This document shows, one piece after another, positions 11,765 through 52,540 of a stretch of DNA of 64,000 nt. A program made the position numbers and the translations under genes. Origin of the DNA: Chishuiella changwenlii (GTDB lineage: Bacteria > Bacteroidota > Bacteroidia > Flavobacteriales > Weeksellaceae). Position 1 is the first letter of the stretch; the number at the start of each line of letters is the position of its first letter. Under the pieces are notes generated by a model. That model did no database searches. It had not been told where the DNA came from and was given only the letters and a program-made list of their open reading frames with translations. The stretch is taken from contig NZ_FRBH01000005.1 in the NCBI RefSeq assembly GCF_900142565.1, forward strand, positions 1 to 64,000, read 5' to 3'.

Positions 11765-12805
11765 TTAATCTATATGAAAATGACTTGGGAAGCTTTTCTT
11801 AGGATTCTTCTTTAAAATATTTAATTTAAATTGACTTTCTAAAAATCCATAACCATAATTAAAAAACTGAATTAATGTGGTTTGTATAGATAACAACCCT
11901 ACAATTGCAGAACTAAATCGTATTGTAGAAAGTAAGAAAATCATAAACAAATAAATCAGCCATAAAACAAATGGAGTTTGTAAAATAAATTGCAAATTAC
12001 CTTCGAAAAATAAACTAAATGCATAGGATAATAATGCTATTAAAGTTCCGACAAAAAATAAACTTGGAAACCAAAATGTTGGTTTTATATATTTTGGATG
12101 TCGTTGATTAAGAATAGGACGAGCCACTCCAAATTGATACACTTGTTTTGCAAACTTTTTTAAAGATGTTCTTCTTTTATGAATAACTTTAGAATCTTGA
12201 AACAATCTAGTTTCAAAACCATTTTCCCATAAACGCATAGATAAATCGGGATCTTCACCAATTCGTAAATCTGCGAAACCTCCAGTTTTTTGATAAGCAG
12301 CTTTAGAAAGTCCCATATTAAAACTTCTTGGTTGGAATTTTCCTATTTGTTTCTTTCCTCCTCTTATTCCACCAGTCGTTAAAAAAGATGTCATAGAGAA
12401 AGTAATTGCTTTTTGCAAATCTGTAAACGAATCATCTGCATCGTCCGGTCCTCCAAAAGCATCAACAAAATTATTTGTTAATTCATTTTTAACCGAAGCT
12501 ATGTAAGTAGCTGGAATAATAGTATCCGAATCTAAGAAAATAAAATAATTTCCTGTCGCTTTTTCTATTCCGTAATTTCTAGATTTCCCTGGGCCAGAAT
12601 TACTTTTATAGTAATAATGAAGATTTAATTGAGAATTAAATTTTGCACAAACGTTATCTAAAGTATTTTTAGATCCATCGTCTACAATTATAATTTCAAA
12701 ATTAGAATCAGTTTGTTTTGTTAAACTCGATAATAATTCAGTTAGTTCATCTTGACGTTCGTAAACGGCAATAATAATCGACAGTTTTAAATCTTCTACG
12801 TTCAA
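11765..12805 (-). CDS. Glycosyltransferase family 2, membrane-anchored
   Basis: A 346-aa protein with a GT-A domain followed by two or three hydrophobic segments (residues ~247-315) that anchor it in the inner membrane. The nucleotide-sugar site shows IIIVDDGSKNT (~38-48) and the metal-binding FLDSDT (DxD, ~94-99); IGEDPDLSMRLW is the acceptor-side ED motif. The sugar and acceptor are unknown. It is the last gene of a tight three-gene operon after a THUMP RNA methyltransferase and a DUF2750 protein, with a 7-base gap, an association without an obvious functional link. Confidence 0.85.
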   Translation of the reverse strand: MNVEDLKLSIIIAVYERQDELTELLSSLTKQTDSNFEIIIVDDGSKNTLDNVCAKFNSQLNLHYYYKSNSGPGKSRNYGIEKATGNYFIFLDSDTIIPATYIASVKNELTNNFVDAFGGPDDADDSFTDLQKAITFSMTSFLTTGGIRGGKKQIGKFQPRSFNMGLSKAAYQKTGGFADLRIGEDPDLSMRLWENGFETRLFQDSKVIHKRRTSLKKFAKQVYQFGVARPILNQRHPKYIKPTFWFPSLFFVGTLIALLSYAFSLFFEGNLQFILQTPFVLWLIYLFMIFLLSTIRFSSAIVGLLSIQTTLIQFFNYGYGFLESQFKLNILKKNPKKSFPSHFHID

Positions 12806-47747: not shown

Positions 47748-48248
47748 TTGAATAATAAGGCTAGCATATTTACAGAATTAGTTGAAAAAAATCAGGGGAT
47801 TGTTCACAAAGTTTGTCGTATTTACACGGACGACAAAGACTCTCATGACGATTTATTTCAAGAAATTATTTTGCAATTATGGCGATCTTATGACTCTTTT
47901 AAAGGAGATTCTAAGTTTAGTACTTGGATGTATCGTGTTAGTTTAAATACTGCTATTACTCTAATTCGTAAGAAATCGAAATACAATGAAACAGATTTTA
48001 ACGAAGCTCAATTTATTAATATAAAATCTGATGATAAAGACGAATTTTTAGAGGAACGAATTACACTTTTATATGCTGCAATTCGACTTTTAAATGATGT
48101 TGAAAGAGCCTTAGTATTATTATTTTTGGAAGATTTACCCTATAAAGATATCGCCGAAACATTAGGTATTTCGGAGGTTAATGCAAGAGTTAAAATGAAT
48201 AGAGTAAAGATTAAATTAAAAGAAATAATGTCTAAAATGGAACAATAA
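47748..48248 (+). CDS. ECF-type RNA polymerase sigma factor
   Basis: A 166-aa sigma factor. Region 2 includes DLFQEIILQLWRSYDSF and KFSTWMYRVSLNTAI (residues ~35-71). Region 4 includes LEDLPYKDIAETLGISEVNA (~125-144). There is no ATG in frame before residue 61, so a TTG codon at 47748 is taken as the start; no Shine-Dalgarno sequence is evident. The stop overlaps the next start as TAATG, so the downstream membrane protein is coupled and may be the anti-sigma factor. A heptamer array lies 71 bases upstream. The regulon is unknown. Confidence 0.87.
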   Translation: MNNKASIFTELVEKNQGIVHKVCRIYTDDKDSHDDLFQEIILQLWRSYDSFKGDSKFSTWMYRVSLNTAITLIRKKSKYNETDFNEAQFINIKSDDKDEFLEERITLLYAAIRLLNDVERALVLLFLEDLPYKDIAETLGISEVNARVKMNRVKIKLKEIMSKMEQ

Positions 48249-48889
48249 TGGAGTTAGACGATTTAAAATCAATTTGGGGTTCCATAAAGGAAGAGAAAAA
48301 ATTTGATCAAAATCAAATTTTTAAAATGCTTAAAAAGAAATCAAGTACAACAATAAAGTGGTTGTTTATATTTACTTTATGTGAGTTCTTTGTCTTTTTA
48401 GGTTTTAATTTATACATCCTAATTTCTGGAAAAAACTTTTTTAACAATGATATAAATTCGCTAGTACAAGCGAATACTATAAATAATTATGAAATAGCGT
48501 CTGTTTTTAGTATCATTATAACAGTTGGCTTTCTTATTATTGCTTATAAGTTTTATAAAAAGATTAATCTTAATCAATCTGTTGTAGAATTGATGAAGAA
48601 TATTATTGCATTTCGCAGATTAGTTAACTTATTTATTGTGTTTACAATTCTTAGTTTAATTGCTTCTTCGGCACCATTTTATTATGAAATGGGACAATCT
48701 ATTTACATTGCTAAACATGCAAATGATTTAAAACCTATTGTTGAAAATGCTAGTATTTACGGTTGGATTGCGATACTTACATCTGTTATGTTTATTGTTA
48801 TTATTGGACTTATTTACTACGCAGTTATTTACTTATTATTCTTAAAAAAATTACAACAAAATTTAAAAGAATTAAGAGAAATAAAATAA
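48248..48889 (+). CDS. Membrane protein coupled to the ECF sigma factor (putative anti-sigma)
   Basis: A 213-aa protein with a short cytoplasmic N terminus (MELDDLKSIWGSIKEEKKFD) and four membrane helices (residues ~38-58, ~85-103, ~125-145, ~175-200). The 'LDDLKSIW' start is common among flavobacterial membrane proteins encoded right after ECF sigma genes. The one-base overlap with the sigma gene and the cytoplasmic N terminus make an anti-sigma role plausible, but it has no zinc-binding anti-sigma motif (HxxxCxxC), so this is inference only. Confidence 0.65.
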   Translation: MELDDLKSIWGSIKEEKKFDQNQIFKMLKKKSSTTIKWLFIFTLCEFFVFLGFNLYILISGKNFFNNDINSLVQANTINNYEIASVFSIIITVGFLIIAYKFYKKINLNQSVVELMKNIIAFRRLVNLFIVFTILSLIASSAPFYYEMGQSIYIAKHANDLKPIVENASIYGWIAILTSVMFIVIIGLIYYAVIYLLFLKKLQQNLKELREIK

Positions 48890-48895
48890 TAGTCA

Positions 48896-48903
48896 TACTT
48901 TTG
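48896..48903 (+). promoter_or_regulatory. -7 promoter element of the His-rich receptor operon (TACTTTTG)
   Basis: TACTTTTG fits TAnnTTTG and lies seven bases before the ATG at 48911, so the transcript would have almost no leader. It marks a separate transcription unit after the sigma/membrane-protein pair. Confidence 0.5.
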
Positions 48904-48910
48904 TAACCAA

Positions 48911-49219
48911 ATGAAAAAGTTCATCCAATATTTAATGCTATCGATATCGCTGTTTATGACAGTGTATCAATCTGCGCATATATTGGAACATGCAAATGAC
49001 AAGGAACATCAAGAAACGAAGAATAAGTATTCTACACACGATCATGATTGTACTATTTGTCATTATTCGCAACAATTTGTTGAAACTAATTCTGAAATAG
49101 AATTATTTGAATGGACTAAAATACTTCTTCAAAAAGATAAAACACTTTATACAACTCATTTAAAACAATCTGTTTTATTTGCTCATAAAAGTTTACGAGC
49201 ACCCCCCTACGCAATTTAA
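48911..49219 (+). CDS. Small exported His/Cys-rich protein
   Basis: A 102-aa protein with an N-terminal signal or anchor (MKKFIQYLMLSISLFMTVYQ). The mature part is rich in potential metal ligands: H23, H27, H33, then THDHDCTICHYS (H43, H45, C47, C50, H51), and it ends in RAPPYAI. A CxxC next to a His cluster is a likely metal site. The plan is like that of small Bacteroidota proteins with a His/Cys core and a C-terminal PP motif found next to TonB-dependent receptors. The promoter is directly upstream and the receptor gene 49 bases downstream. Confidence 0.65.
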   Translation: MKKFIQYLMLSISLFMTVYQSAHILEHANDKEHQETKNKYSTHDHDCTICHYSQQFVETNSEIELFEWTKILLQKDKTLYTTHLKQSVLFAHKSLRAPPYAI

Positions 49220-49268
49220 TTTCAGAAAAAAACAACTTACTTTTTTACGTTATTAAATTATTGTATTC

Positions 49269-51656
49269 ATGTCAATCAATATAAAATGTAGTTTAATTGC
49301 TACATTATTATGCGGAACAGCATTCGCTCAAAACATTTTTGAAGGTCAAATTGTAGATAAAAATCAAAGACCTATTCCTTTCATTACATTCACTTTTGAT
49401 GAAAAAGATATACATACTGATGCTGAAGGGAAATTTAAAATTGAAAATTTATCAAAAGGAAAGTATCATGTAGAAATAAATGAACAAGGTTATGAACCTT
49501 TTTCACAAACTGTTACATTTGATACACAACAGAAAATTGTTTTTACACTAACATTTCATAGCTCTTATAAATTAGATGAAGTTACTGTATTAGGACATCA
49601 TCACGATTTTACAACAGCTAATACAGAGCGAGTAGATCAAACATTTATTCAGGAAAATTACGCTGGTTCTTTAGCTAAATCTTTAGAAAACATAGCAGGT
49701 GTAAATGCTTCTGGAATTGGAGCTTCTGCTTCAAAACCTATTATTAGAGGTTTAGGTTTTAATCGATTAATTGTTACTGAAAATGGTGTAAAACAAGAAG
49801 GTCAACAATGGGGAGCCGACCACGGTTTAGAAATTGATGCATTAAATGTAGAAGATATAGAAGTTATAAAAGGACCTTCTGCATTAGAGTACGGAAATGA
49901 AGCAATTGCTGGTGTCATAAAAATTAATAACAATAATTTACCTAAAAAGAACTCGACTTCTGGTGAAGTAAGAGCGCTTTATCAATCTATTAACGATAAT
50001 TATGCACTTGGTTTTAACCTGAAATCACGTGGCGATAAATTCTTTTATAAAATAAAAGGATCTTATTCTGATTATGCAGATTATCGCACAACAGCAGACA
50101 GAATTTATTATTTAAGTAGATATCTACCTATTTATAATAAACGTGTAAAAAATACTGCTGGACAAGATATTAATAGCGAAGTACAAGCAGGATTTGTGGG
50201 CGATAAATTCCGTTCTATTTTAACTTTATCTAATGTGAATCAGAAAATTGGTTTTTTCCCAGGTTCTCATGGTATTCCTTTAGTGGATAGATTACAAGAT
50301 GATGGTAATTATAGAAATGTTGAATTTCCTTACCAAAGTGTTAATCACTTTAAAGCAATCTCTGAAAATGAGTTTCGCGTAGATACAAAAAACACGATTA
50401 AATTTATAACGAGTTACCAAAATAATCACCGTCAGGAAATTAGTGCTTTTCATACGCATTATGGGAATCAGCAAGCGCCAACAAAAAACCCTGATTTAGA
50501 ATTAGATTTTAAACTTACTACGTATGATTCTCAATTAAAATTTGAACATAATCATAATAAGAATTTTAAAACAATTATTGGTGCTCAAGCACAATTACAA
50601 TCGAATAACGTAGCTGGATATAACTACTTGTTACCAGAATATGACCGTAATATTTTTAGTGGATTCTTAATAGAAGAATTTAAAAAAGGAAATACATGGA
50701 AAGTAAATGCTGGTATACGATATGATTATGCTACATTTAAATCTCAAGGTTATTTTGATCAAATTTTATACGATTATTTAATTACTCAAAACAACTCTCC
50801 TTCGTTAGCAGATTATTACGCTAACCGAAGCAAAACAATCAACAAGAATTACAGTAATTTAAATGCAATGGTTGGTGCTACATATCAACCAAATGATTTA
50901 TGGGATTTTAATTTAAATTTCGGAACAAACTTTCGTTTACCAACAGCTATAGAACTTGGTGCAAATGGAATTCATCATGGTAGTTTTAGACACGAACGTG
51001 GAAACGAAAATTTAGATACTGAGAAAGGTCTTGCATTAGATTTTAAAGCATCTTTCCATAAAAATGATTGGTTAATTTCTGCTAGTCCGTATTTATATTA
51101 TTTTAGTAATTATATTTTCTTAAAACCATCGGGACAATTTTCTATTCTTCCTCATGGTGGACAAATCTATGAATATACACAAAGTAAGGCTTTGTTAACT
51201 GGATTTGAGATTGAAGTTCGTAAGAAAATAAACGAAAATTTTGACGCAAATGTTATCTACGAATACTTATATAATCGTCAGATACAAGACAATAATAAAT
51301 TTGGTTATTATTTACCTTTTACTCCTGCTAATAATTTGTTTGGACAAGTAAATTATAACATAAAAAAATCGGCTGGAATATTCGAAAATTTTAACTTTTT
51401 CGTAAATGGAAAATATACTTTCGAACAAGATAAAATTGCATTAAATGAAGATATTACACCAAGTTATTTCTTAGTTGGACTTGGAGGTAAAACAACAGTA
51501 AAGATTAATAATTTTACAGCTAATTTAAGCGTGCAAGTTTCTAACTTATTCAATGAAAACTATTTTAATCATACTAGTTTTTATCGTGCATTACAATTGC
51601 CAGAACAAGCTAGAAATATACAAGTAATGTTAGGAATACCGTTTGGTAAAAAATAA
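49269..51656 (+). CDS. TonB-dependent receptor, probably for a metal (ZnuD-like)
   Basis: A 795-aa outer-membrane receptor: signal peptide (residues 1-20, ending AFAQ), a carboxypeptidase-regulatory-like domain (GQIVDKNQRPIPFITFTF, ~27-44), a plug (SLAKSLENIAGVNASGIGAS, then PIIRGLGFNRLIV) and a beta-barrel ending in aromatic residues. GHHHDF (~108-113) precedes the plug, and the plug has QEGQQWGADHGLEIDALNVE, resembling the PDHA region of the zinc receptor ZnuD. Zinc or another metal is therefore a reasonable substrate, supported by the His-rich neighbours. Direct proof is lacking; a siderophore-type ligand is the alternative. Confidence 0.85.
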   Translation: MSINIKCSLIATLLCGTAFAQNIFEGQIVDKNQRPIPFITFTFDEKDIHTDAEGKFKIENLSKGKYHVEINEQGYEPFSQTVTFDTQQKIVFTLTFHSSYKLDEVTVLGHHHDFTTANTERVDQTFIQENYAGSLAKSLENIAGVNASGIGASASKPIIRGLGFNRLIVTENGVKQEGQQWGADHGLEIDALNVEDIEVIKGPSALEYGNEAIAGVIKINNNNLPKKNSTSGEVRALYQSINDNYALGFNLKSRGDKFFYKIKGSYSDYADYRTTADRIYYLSRYLPIYNKRVKNTAGQDINSEVQAGFVGDKFRSILTLSNVNQKIGFFPGSHGIPLVDRLQDDGNYRNVEFPYQSVNHFKAISENEFRVDTKNTIKFITSYQNNHRQEISAFHTHYGNQQAPTKNPDLELDFKLTTYDSQLKFEHNHNKNFKTIIGAQAQLQSNNVAGYNYLLPEYDRNIFSGFLIEEFKKGNTWKVNAGIRYDYATFKSQGYFDQILYDYLITQNNSPSLADYYANRSKTINKNYSNLNAMVGATYQPNDLWDFNLNFGTNFRLPTAIELGANGIHHGSFRHERGNENLDTEKGLALDFKASFHKNDWLISASPYLYYFSNYIFLKPSGQFSILPHGGQIYEYTQSKALLTGFEIEVRKKINENFDANVIYEYLYNRQIQDNNKFGYYLPFTPANNLFGQVNYNIKKSAGIFENFNFFVNGKYTFEQDKIALNEDITPSYFLVGLGGKTTVKINNFTANLSVQVSNLFNENYFNHTSFYRALQLPEQARNIQVMLGIPFGKK

Positions 51657-51660
51657 GATC

Positions 51661-51981
51661 ATGAAAAAGAAAAATCCATTTTTTGGACTATTCTTTAGCT
51701 TAATCATTATTTCTATTCCAATTTTTAATCAGCTTCATTATTCGTTAATAGATCATTTCGAAACGATTGATAAAACCAATAAAGAAGTTATTCATCATCA
51801 ATGTAATCATTTTACATTTTATGTTGTTTTTCTTGATACACATGATGATCCACATATAAAAAAGGAAGAAGAGTTAACATTTAATCTAAAGATAAAAACA
51901 ACACTTGTAGAAAATGTTAAGAACATTACAAGTTGTTTGTTTTTTAATCGTGGTCCGCCTAGAAATTTTATTTTTTGCTAA
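51661..51981 (+). CDS. Small exported His-containing protein
   Basis: A 106-aa protein with an N-terminal hydrophobic segment (residues ~7-25), then several His and Cys (VIHHQCNHF, DTHDDPHIKK, NITSCLFF) and a C-terminal RGPPRN. The plan (anchor, His/Cys core, R-G/A-P-P end) matches the protein encoded just before the receptor, though the sequences are diverged. I chose the ATG at 51661, four bases after the receptor stop; an upstream ATG at 51643 would overlap the receptor and spoil the signal peptide. The function is unknown; metal handling is inferred. Confidence 0.55.
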   Translation: MKKKNPFFGLFFSLIIISIPIFNQLHYSLIDHFETIDKTNKEVIHHQCNHFTFYVVFLDTHDDPHIKKEEELTFNLKIKTTLVENVKNITSCLFFNRGPPRNFIFC

Positions 51982-52032
51982 AATCAATCAAAATCTAAAA
52001 AAACATAATTCAAATTAAAAAAATTAATAAAA

Positions 52033-52494
52033 ATGAAAAATTCAATTTTAAAATATACATTCGTTTCAGCTACAGCATTATTTATTTCATCTTGTTCTAG
52101 TGATGATTCTTCTTTAGATACAACTAAACCAGAAATCTCATTATTAACTCCAAAAGATGATGCGCATTTTCATCCTGGAGATGTTATTTCTTTAGAAGCT
52201 ATTTTAAAGGATAATGTAGAATTAGGAAATGTAAAAGTAGAAGTACATTCAGCTGCTGATGGTCATACACACCAACACAAAACAGCAGATGCAACAGTAG
52301 ATTTTACATTCAACAAAGAGTATTCTATTCCTGCAGGTTCTAAAGAATTTGTTTTAAAAGACAACATTCAAATTACTACAGATAATGTAACATCTGGTCA
52401 TTACCATTTAGGTTTACATTTAACTGATAAAGCAGGTAACGAAACTGAAAGTTTTATCGAAATTGAAATCGCTGATCACGGTCACGAGCACTAG
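52033..52494 (+). CDS. DUF4625 lipoprotein, His-rich
   Basis: A 153-aa lipoprotein: signal with lipobox (ATALFISSC, Cys ~21), then an immunoglobulin-like DUF4625 domain (KPEISLLTPKDDAHFHPGD, ~31-49; DNVELGNVKVEVHSAAD). Histidines cluster in three places: DGHTHQHK (~77-84), GHYHLGLH (~127-134) and the C-terminal DHGHEH. This suggests surface or periplasmic metal binding. It is the last gene of the His-rich receptor unit and ends at a strong terminator. Confidence 0.8.
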   Translation: MKNSILKYTFVSATALFISSCSSDDSSLDTTKPEISLLTPKDDAHFHPGDVISLEAILKDNVELGNVKVEVHSAADGHTHQHKTADATVDFTFNKEYSIPAGSKEFVLKDNIQITTDNVTSGHYHLGLHLTDKAGNETESFIEIEIADHGHEH

Positions 52495-52510
52495 AAAATA
52501 ATTTATTTTA

Positions 52511-52540
52511 AAAAATGCCTGAAAAATCAGGCATTTTTTT
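52511..52540 (+). terminator. Terminator of the His-rich receptor operon
   Basis: AAAAATGCCTGA (52511-52522), AAAA loop, TCAGGCATTTTT (52527-52538) and further Ts. Confidence 0.9.

Follow-up and report, generated by a model that had tools for sequence, protein, structure and literature searches.

In a 64,000-nucleotide (nt) stretch of the Chishuiella changwenlii genome (positions 1 to 64,000 of contig NZ_FRBH01000005.1; hereafter the window), two small open reading frames (ORFs), here called ORF1 and ORF2, share a forward-strand operon with a ZnuD-like TonB-dependent receptor and a His-rich lipoprotein, in the order ORF1, receptor, ORF2, lipoprotein. We conclude that ORF1, and less certainly ORF2, is probably a stall-gated regulatory upstream open reading frame (uORF) encoding a nascent-chain metal sensor. 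More tentatively, and with rather less than even confidence, we propose that a Bacteroidota family of zinc-sensing nascent peptides gates zinc uptake through a stem between the sensor stop codon and the receptor start site, and that the paired sensors, which occur in the genus of Empedobacter, in one further genus of the same family and in two genera that belong to a different family, would act in series, gating in turn the receptor and a periplasmic lipoprotein.

Motifs and geometry of the two small ORFs

ORF1 (48911..49219), or sensor 1, encodes 102 residues that include HDHDCTICH and end in RAPPYAI. In the ORF1 alignment, its CxxC (C47-T-I-C50, codons 49049..49060) is separated by 45 residues from a RAPP motif (codons 49196..49207), and three further residues precede the stop codon. 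ORF2 (51661..51981), or sensor 2, encodes 106 residues from its ATG, or 112 from an alternative TTG at 51643 in the ORF listing; it carries HHQCNH, and its Cys48 is followed by 48 residues, an RGPP motif (codons 51949..51960) and six more residues (RGPPRNFIFC). Both N-termini are hydrophobic by eye, the basis on which the products are predicted to be exported.

RAPP and RGPP have been shown experimentally to be particularly robust stalling motifs, and are avoided in bacterial proteomes (PMC12992588). In the 3.44-Mb genome their codon pattern matches the DNA 13 times, and only three of these matches are in frame within an ORF of at least 100 residues. All three ORFs are small and Cys/His-bearing, with the motif 3–6 residues from the C-terminus, and two of them are ORF1 and ORF2; nine of the other ten matches lie on longer ORFs in another frame or strand, and one (L009) is in no ORF of more than 21 residues. 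The third ORF is on a different contig (L034, G000:C15:38000-53500; 12037-12369, reverse strand). Its 111 residues include CQCLLHMH and a Cys 48 residues before a RAPP that is followed by three residues, and it lies 304 nt upstream of genes for two DUF3526 ABC-2 permeases and an ABC ATPase.

The arrangement CxxC-45-RAPP-3 recurs in the ORF1 of all 14 genomes of the genus (own genome counted), while every ORF2 of these genomes and of G022, a genome outside the genus, has a Cys exactly 48 residues before [RK]GPP (15 of 15), with a tail of 4–16 residues; in ORF1, RAPP is likewise 48 residues from the leading Cys of CxxC. Over 87 ORF1-type proteins the Cys-to-motif distance is 46–49 residues in 86 and 52 in one (standard deviation 0.79, as against 7.1 for the distance from the initial Met to the Cys). 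Invariant positions are Met1, His23, His27, Cys47, Cys50, Leu95, Arg96, Pro98 and Pro99 in 17 aligned ORF1s, and Met1, His26, His32, Cys48, Pro99 and Pro100 in 15 ORF2s. Since the RAPP codons of ORF1 vary synonymously (3, 3, 4 and 4 different codons per position over the 14 genomes), RAPP is conserved at the protein level. Compared with each other, the profiles of ORF1 and ORF2 give a weak match (probability 85.8), and the eight most distant ORF1s retain 27–42% identity to that of the window. Far below the respective cut-offs, ORF1 also matches two NCBIfam families, CzcI at E 7.6e-4 and, in a nearly full-length match, LIC10965 at E 0.015; these families may include more sensors of the ORF1 sort. 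A c-type haem site in CTICH was considered and rejected, the residue after CxxC being Asp, Glu or Gln in many relatives.

An initial annotation of the window, made from the sequence alone, had taken the two small proteins for accessory metal-binding factors, that is, exported chaperones or scavengers that serve the receptor. Their His/Cys-rich composition, their hydrophobic N-termini and their position beside the receptor in 14 of 14 genus genomes all suit such a role. However, few residues are invariant besides the ligands and the arrest motif, and the distance from Cys to motif hardly changes even as the remainder of the protein drifts. Furthermore, motifs that bacterial proteomes avoid are confined here, among ORFs of at least 100 residues, to these two and the third small ORF of the same plan, and the RNA co-variation described below is located at the sensor stop codon, which a binding protein would not need. 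Given the fixed spacing, the stalling motifs and this co-variation, we prefer to read the two products as arrest peptides and consider an accessory role very unlikely.

Other parts of that annotation are supported. All the features it named are present where it had placed them; it had recognized two small proteins of the same plan, which proves to be Cys/His ligands at a set distance from a C-terminal RAPP or RGPP; and the metal-uptake operon with a ZnuD-like receptor that it described is borne out and is conserved, the order ORF1-receptor-ORF2-lipoprotein being kept in all 14 genus genomes searched and in one other genus (relatives named in one scan were Algoriella xinjiangensis and four Empedobacter species). 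With the receptor as anchor, 60 genomes were searched and 18 had a match at E ≤1e-80; 17 of these 18 loci have at least one small ORF: both in the 14 genus genomes and G022, and one each in G038 and G053. Neither was found at the remaining locus, that of G049. In one genus relative (L028, G004:C1) the receptor gene has internal stop codons and both sensor ORFs are open. The lipoprotein that follows sensor 2 is a DUF4625 protein in every case tested (window, L026, L029, both of G022).

A profile search for the small proteins beside TonB receptors, which the initial annotation had suggested, bore out the association on a wider scale. The ORF1 profile gave 76 matches in 54 of the 395 genomes of the order, of which 72 were examined after the window's own match and three others that were broken or fragmentary (G077, G245, G101) had been left out. 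A TonB receptor is in the downstream gene run of 70 of these 72 relatives, and is the first gene in 50. R[AG]PP lies 2–9 residues from the end in 72 of 72 (37 RAPP, 35 RGPP), a count that is partly selected because the ORF1 profile includes the RAPP columns, and that to this extent tells against our reading; a CxxC lies 43–46 residues before the motif in 63, and nine have no CxxC. A second R[AG]PP ORF between the receptor and a DUF4625 lipoprotein was found at two of the 72 loci (L095, L118), whose receptors are the closest to the window receptor among the 72 (47% identity). The corresponding ORF2 profile search of the order returned its own match and eight weak ones, five with stop codons and three that cover 27–47 model positions. 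Among the 72 loci, genes for an ABC ATPase and a receptor come after the sensor in 11, and a cluster of lipoprotein-like proteins of about 185 residues lies downstream of the receptors in 15 (L090, L099, L106 and 12 more); three of these proteins were tested and had no Pfam match.

Complementarity between the sensor stop codon and the receptor start site

In the window, AATTTAAT (49213..49220), which spans the stop codon of sensor 1, is complementary to ATTAAATT (49252..49259), 10–17 nt upstream of the receptor ATG; we propose that the two form the 5' and 3' arms of a stall-coupled stem. Some relatives have different sequences at the same two sites that are again complementary. We therefore compared the pairing of 30 nt around the sensor stop codon with a segment of at most 41 nt that reaches 6 nt into the start of the receptor gene, using either the native partner or one swapped in from another locus. 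The test covered loci with the receptor directly after the sensor and a gap of 20–120 nt, which comprise 29 of the 72 relatives and 15 loci of the genus and G022, with representatives chosen by similarity; its rule was fixed after the genus loci had been seen and before the other loci were tested.

Over the 44 short-gap loci (32 representatives), native partners pair at -8.40 kcal/mol and swapped partners at -5.31, and none of 20,000 permutations was as good. Excluding the genus and G022, which were the discovery set, left 29 loci and 26 representatives with -8.30 versus -5.62 (z -6.3; 0 of 10,000 permutations). With these 26 representatives, a reversed start window gave -5.82 (Wilcoxon p 0.008). 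When, in the set of 32 representatives, the sensor-side window was slid along the gene, values of -5.2 to -6.1 were followed by -6.9 and -8.5 near the stop codon, with the strongest signal at the stop codon itself. Control gene pairs (88 neighbouring pairs, 57 representatives) gave no complementarity signal (z -0.6). The motifs, their spacing, the conserved gene order and the co-varying complementarity are all established by comparing sequences.

Beyond these observations, we infer that the ORF1 and ORF2 peptides stall, which metal they sense and in which direction the switch works. When metal is scarce, the ribosome would stall at the C-terminal RAPP with the CxxC, 45–48 residues back, near the exit of the ribosomal tunnel, which lies at about that distance. 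The ribosome stalled on ORF1 would mask the 5' arm at the sensor stop codon, and the stem could therefore not close before the receptor start, so that the receptor would be translated. Within the 5' arm, pairing is mostly at +10 to +21 nt, counted from the first nucleotide of the P site, and the near part of that arm would fall under the footprint of a stalled ribosome. Metal, most likely zinc, would fill the Cys/His site and relieve the stall; the ribosome would leave, the stem would close, and receptor synthesis would drop. That the receptor would be on in the metal-poor state is suggested by the CruR precedent and by the logic of uptake genes. ORF2 would repeat the metal test ahead of the lipoprotein and, as it starts 4 nt after the receptor stop codon, its translation may be coupled to that of the receptor.

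Several observations weigh against this scheme. Pairing is still at -7.0 to -6.3 once the receptor-side window has been moved into the receptor gene. In the window, the stem is short and consists of A-U pairs throughout; the fold z of two overlapping segments containing it is -1.9 and -2.9, and 15 of 86 swaps, which include close relatives, pair equally well. Among the 26 independent representatives, five do no better than their swaps (L097, L113 and L127 are worse; L129 and L130 are equal). At the start of the lipoprotein gene after ORF2 (17 loci, 12 representatives) no complementarity was found (z -0.3), and three of the 14 genus genomes have KGPP in place of RGPP in ORF2. Finally, the 43 of 72 sensors with long gaps show no stem (z 0.1; whole gap -0.1), and the stem is therefore not the sole output of these sensors.

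The long-gap loci bear on a different output, a Rho switch of the CruR type, in which the stall would keep Rho off the mRNA and metal would free the ribosome and let Rho end transcription before the receptor gene. Such a switch has been demonstrated for CruR-bfrG in Bordetella (PMC9426467), and the 43 long-gap relatives, which have neither a stem nor an intrinsic-terminator-like hairpin (0 of 43), need an output other than these. However, the gap in the window is 49 nt, as against 162 nt in Bordetella, and the stem of the short-gap loci is specific and co-varies, which Rho control would not require. We consider this switch unlikely as the explanation of the system as a whole; Rho-dependent control is possible above all for the long-gap relatives. 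Attenuation by an intrinsic terminator between the sensor and the next gene was rejected, as a terminator-like hairpin was found in 0 of 72 gaps by a scan that must be regarded as strict, because shuffled sequences also gave 0 of 215.

The receptor, the sensed metal and the surrounding genes

The receptor (49269..51656; 795 residues, Plug and barrel domains) contains GHHHDF and GQQWGADHGLEID. Over its full length it resembles both the ZnuD and the TonB-hemin model, with scores far under the cut-off of either: it reaches 133.3 bits against the ZnuD model NF038289, whose cut-off is 950 bits, and is thus not a ZnuD by that test, and slightly more, 141.9 bits, against the TonB-hemin model. The closest solved structure is ZnuD (PDB 4rdr; E 2e-17, residues 130-275).

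This nearest structure speaks for zinc, as do several of the genes around the ORF1 relatives. The sensor of L156 lies upstream of a ZigA gene (608 bits against a curated cut-off of 600), and an AztD-like protein, AztD being the model of a zinc chaperone, is in the gene run of nine loci; two were tested (E 5e-23 and 1e-22) and reach 80 bits, against a cut-off of 400. In one genome of a Flavobacterium-like genus (g26; L087:796-6307), a RAPP sensor heads CobW, dCTP-deaminase-like (DCD), FolE, FUR-family, LCIB-type carbonic-anhydrase-like and PTPS genes, a set that we take to be a zinc-starvation signature. This run may be a zinc-starvation operon with a built-in FUR-family regulator. At the G049 locus a convergent FUR-family gene adjoins the His-rich lipoprotein gene, though that locus has no sensor. 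An ORF with a C-terminal R[AG]PP was found nearby on the same strand at three ZigA-like loci out of 30, two of them in a single genus, and at none of 30 PCuAC loci, which are too few to decide the matter; of the matches listed, 30 of the 38 ZigA-type and 30 of the 73 PCuAC ones were covered, and at least two of the ZigA loci (L161, L184) have incomplete upstream sequence. In Caulobacter, a DUF2946 gene is reported as the first gene of a Zur-activated zinc-efflux operon (PMC4176598).

The same arrest peptides might instead sense copper, as CruR does, iron or haem, or some other ligand. The CXXC-45-RAPP geometry is that of the copper-responsive CruR, and copper is the metal sensed by both CruR and CutF; the receptor has a slightly higher score as TonB-hemin than as ZnuD; the genes after some relatives encode an ABC ATPase, a siderophore-type receptor (one was tested and exceeds its cut-off) or DUF3526 permeases; and just three of the 30 ZigA loci have such an ORF. 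Conversely, copper-class uORFs are reported to be missing from Bacteroidota (PMC12992588), and ORF1 relatives head zinc-type genes, namely ZigA, the L087 set and AztD-like. We regard a metal or ligand other than zinc as a real but doubtful prospect. Genomic context, as far as gene content can indicate it, favours zinc over copper, and zinc is in our view the somewhat likelier identity of the sensed metal.

Within the operon the gaps are 49 nt from ORF1 to the receptor, 4 nt from the receptor stop to ORF2 and 51 nt from ORF2 to the lipoprotein gene (52033..52494). The latter encodes 153 residues with HTHQHK, HYHLGLH and HGHEH, matches Pfam DUF4625 (E 1.2e-31), and is followed at the operon end by a terminator-like hairpin with a T run (52510..52539). 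TAnnTTTG is the promoter consensus of Bacteroidota, and a -7 box of this type, TACTTTTG (48896..48903), lies 7 nt upstream of the ATG of sensor 1; the operon mRNA is thus probably nearly leaderless. Of the 51 window ORFs of at least 150 residues, 11 have a box of this kind no more than 30 nt from their start. Because the box alone is not rare in the window, its weight lies in its conservation: it is found 6–20 nt upstream of the ORF1 ATG at 15 of 15 loci (14 genus loci and G022). The preceding gene, of 213 codons, ends 21 nt before ORF1, and co-transcription from further upstream is therefore also possible. It encodes a hydrophobic protein, possibly an anti-sigma factor, and together with an extracytoplasmic function (ECF) sigma factor gene occupies 47748-48889, directly upstream of ORF1. 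The same pair is present in the nine genus loci that were read on the forward strand and in G022, and an open frame of similar length to the 213-residue gene ends 19–39 nt upstream of the sensor at 15 of 15 loci.

Relation to known nascent-chain sensors

Regulatory uORFs that combine a metal site with a RAPP-like end are a kind already known from CruR, CutF and a 2025 survey, and the initial annotation's view of the small proteins as the least described part of the locus is partly outdated in that their kind was described in 2022–2025. In the open PMC literature, supplementary lists aside, we found no zinc-responsive arrest peptide, no operon-internal or second sensor in one operon, and no co-variation between a sensor stop codon and a downstream start site. 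The CruR paper points to the absence of any known copper or zinc riboswitch, a gap that its authors propose is filled by nascent proteins (PMC9426467). The present locus would extend the nascent-sensor idea to Bacteroidota, points to zinc, and appears to place two sensors in series; it also adds an RNA element, in that the proposed stall would be tied to the receptor start through co-varying sequence. More generally, the small 'hypothetical' genes that adjoin TonB receptors in genomes of the Flavobacteriales type may encode switches and not accessory proteins.

Among known systems, SecM-secA resembles our proposal for ORF1 in that a stalled ribosome opens a stem hiding the next start, the difference being that its signal is secretion rather than a metal and its motif RAGP. 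For the receptor, ZnuD is the closest solved relative, yet the score of 133 bits is well short of the 950-bit cut-off. The RAPP/RGPP arrest peptides of the survey are small secretory proteins with a C-terminal motif that are reported, for Gram-negatives at large, to be encoded upstream of TonB-related genes; the peptides tested are from Streptomyces and Bordetella, together with the earlier ApcA, ApdA and ApdP, and the words 'zinc' and 'tandem' are absent from the main text of that report (PMC12992588).

CutF of the Rhodobacter capsulatus cutFOG operon is an exported nascent copper sensor with a C-terminal Pro motif, and an mRNA stem-loop shields the ribosome-binding site of the next gene (PMC9973294). 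Both ORF1 and ORF2 fall within the rules by which CutF-like proteins were listed (fewer than 150 residues, PP in the last 15 residues, a same-strand gene within 1000 nt), PP lying three residues from the end in ORF1 and six in ORF2. A corresponding stem is seen in the ORF1-type short-gap set and not at ORF2. Bacteroidota account for 19% of the listed relatives of CutF, and for 40% after normalising (PMC9973294). However, CutF raises CutO when copper is present, while the logic here is probably the opposite, as befits an uptake receptor, and the stem proposed here takes in the sensor's own stop-codon region.

The nearest counterpart is CruR, a copper-responsive uORF upstream of a TonB receptor gene in Bordetella pertussis (bp2923-bfrG), which has CXXC at 90-93 and RAPP at 139-142, with 45 residues between them and three before the end (PMC9426467). 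ORF1 has this CXXC-45-RAPP-3-stop geometry exactly and, like CruR (DUF2946, PF11162), is a small ORF heading a TonB-receptor operon, with its own promoter-like box and the receptor gene next. ORF2 shares the geometry in part (a single Cys at 48, [RK]GPP) and is the third gene. Neither ORF matches PF11162 at E ≤10, and the model has no match in the genome. In Bacteroidota the DUF2946 model had nine matches, of which one with internal stops (L160) was left out; the remaining eight ORFs all have an R[AG]PP end, a region that the model itself covers, and a Cys 45–50 residues before it, at exactly 48/45 in three. In a profile-profile comparison ORF1 matches these eight weakly (E 2.7e-6, probability 88.6). 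The two systems differ in that the gap to the receptor gene is 162 nt for CruR and 49 nt here, and in that the present family has a co-varying stem and a context pointing to zinc. Finally, DUF2946 genes are reported to be systematically first in their operons, whereas the second sensor of the present locus is operon-internal.

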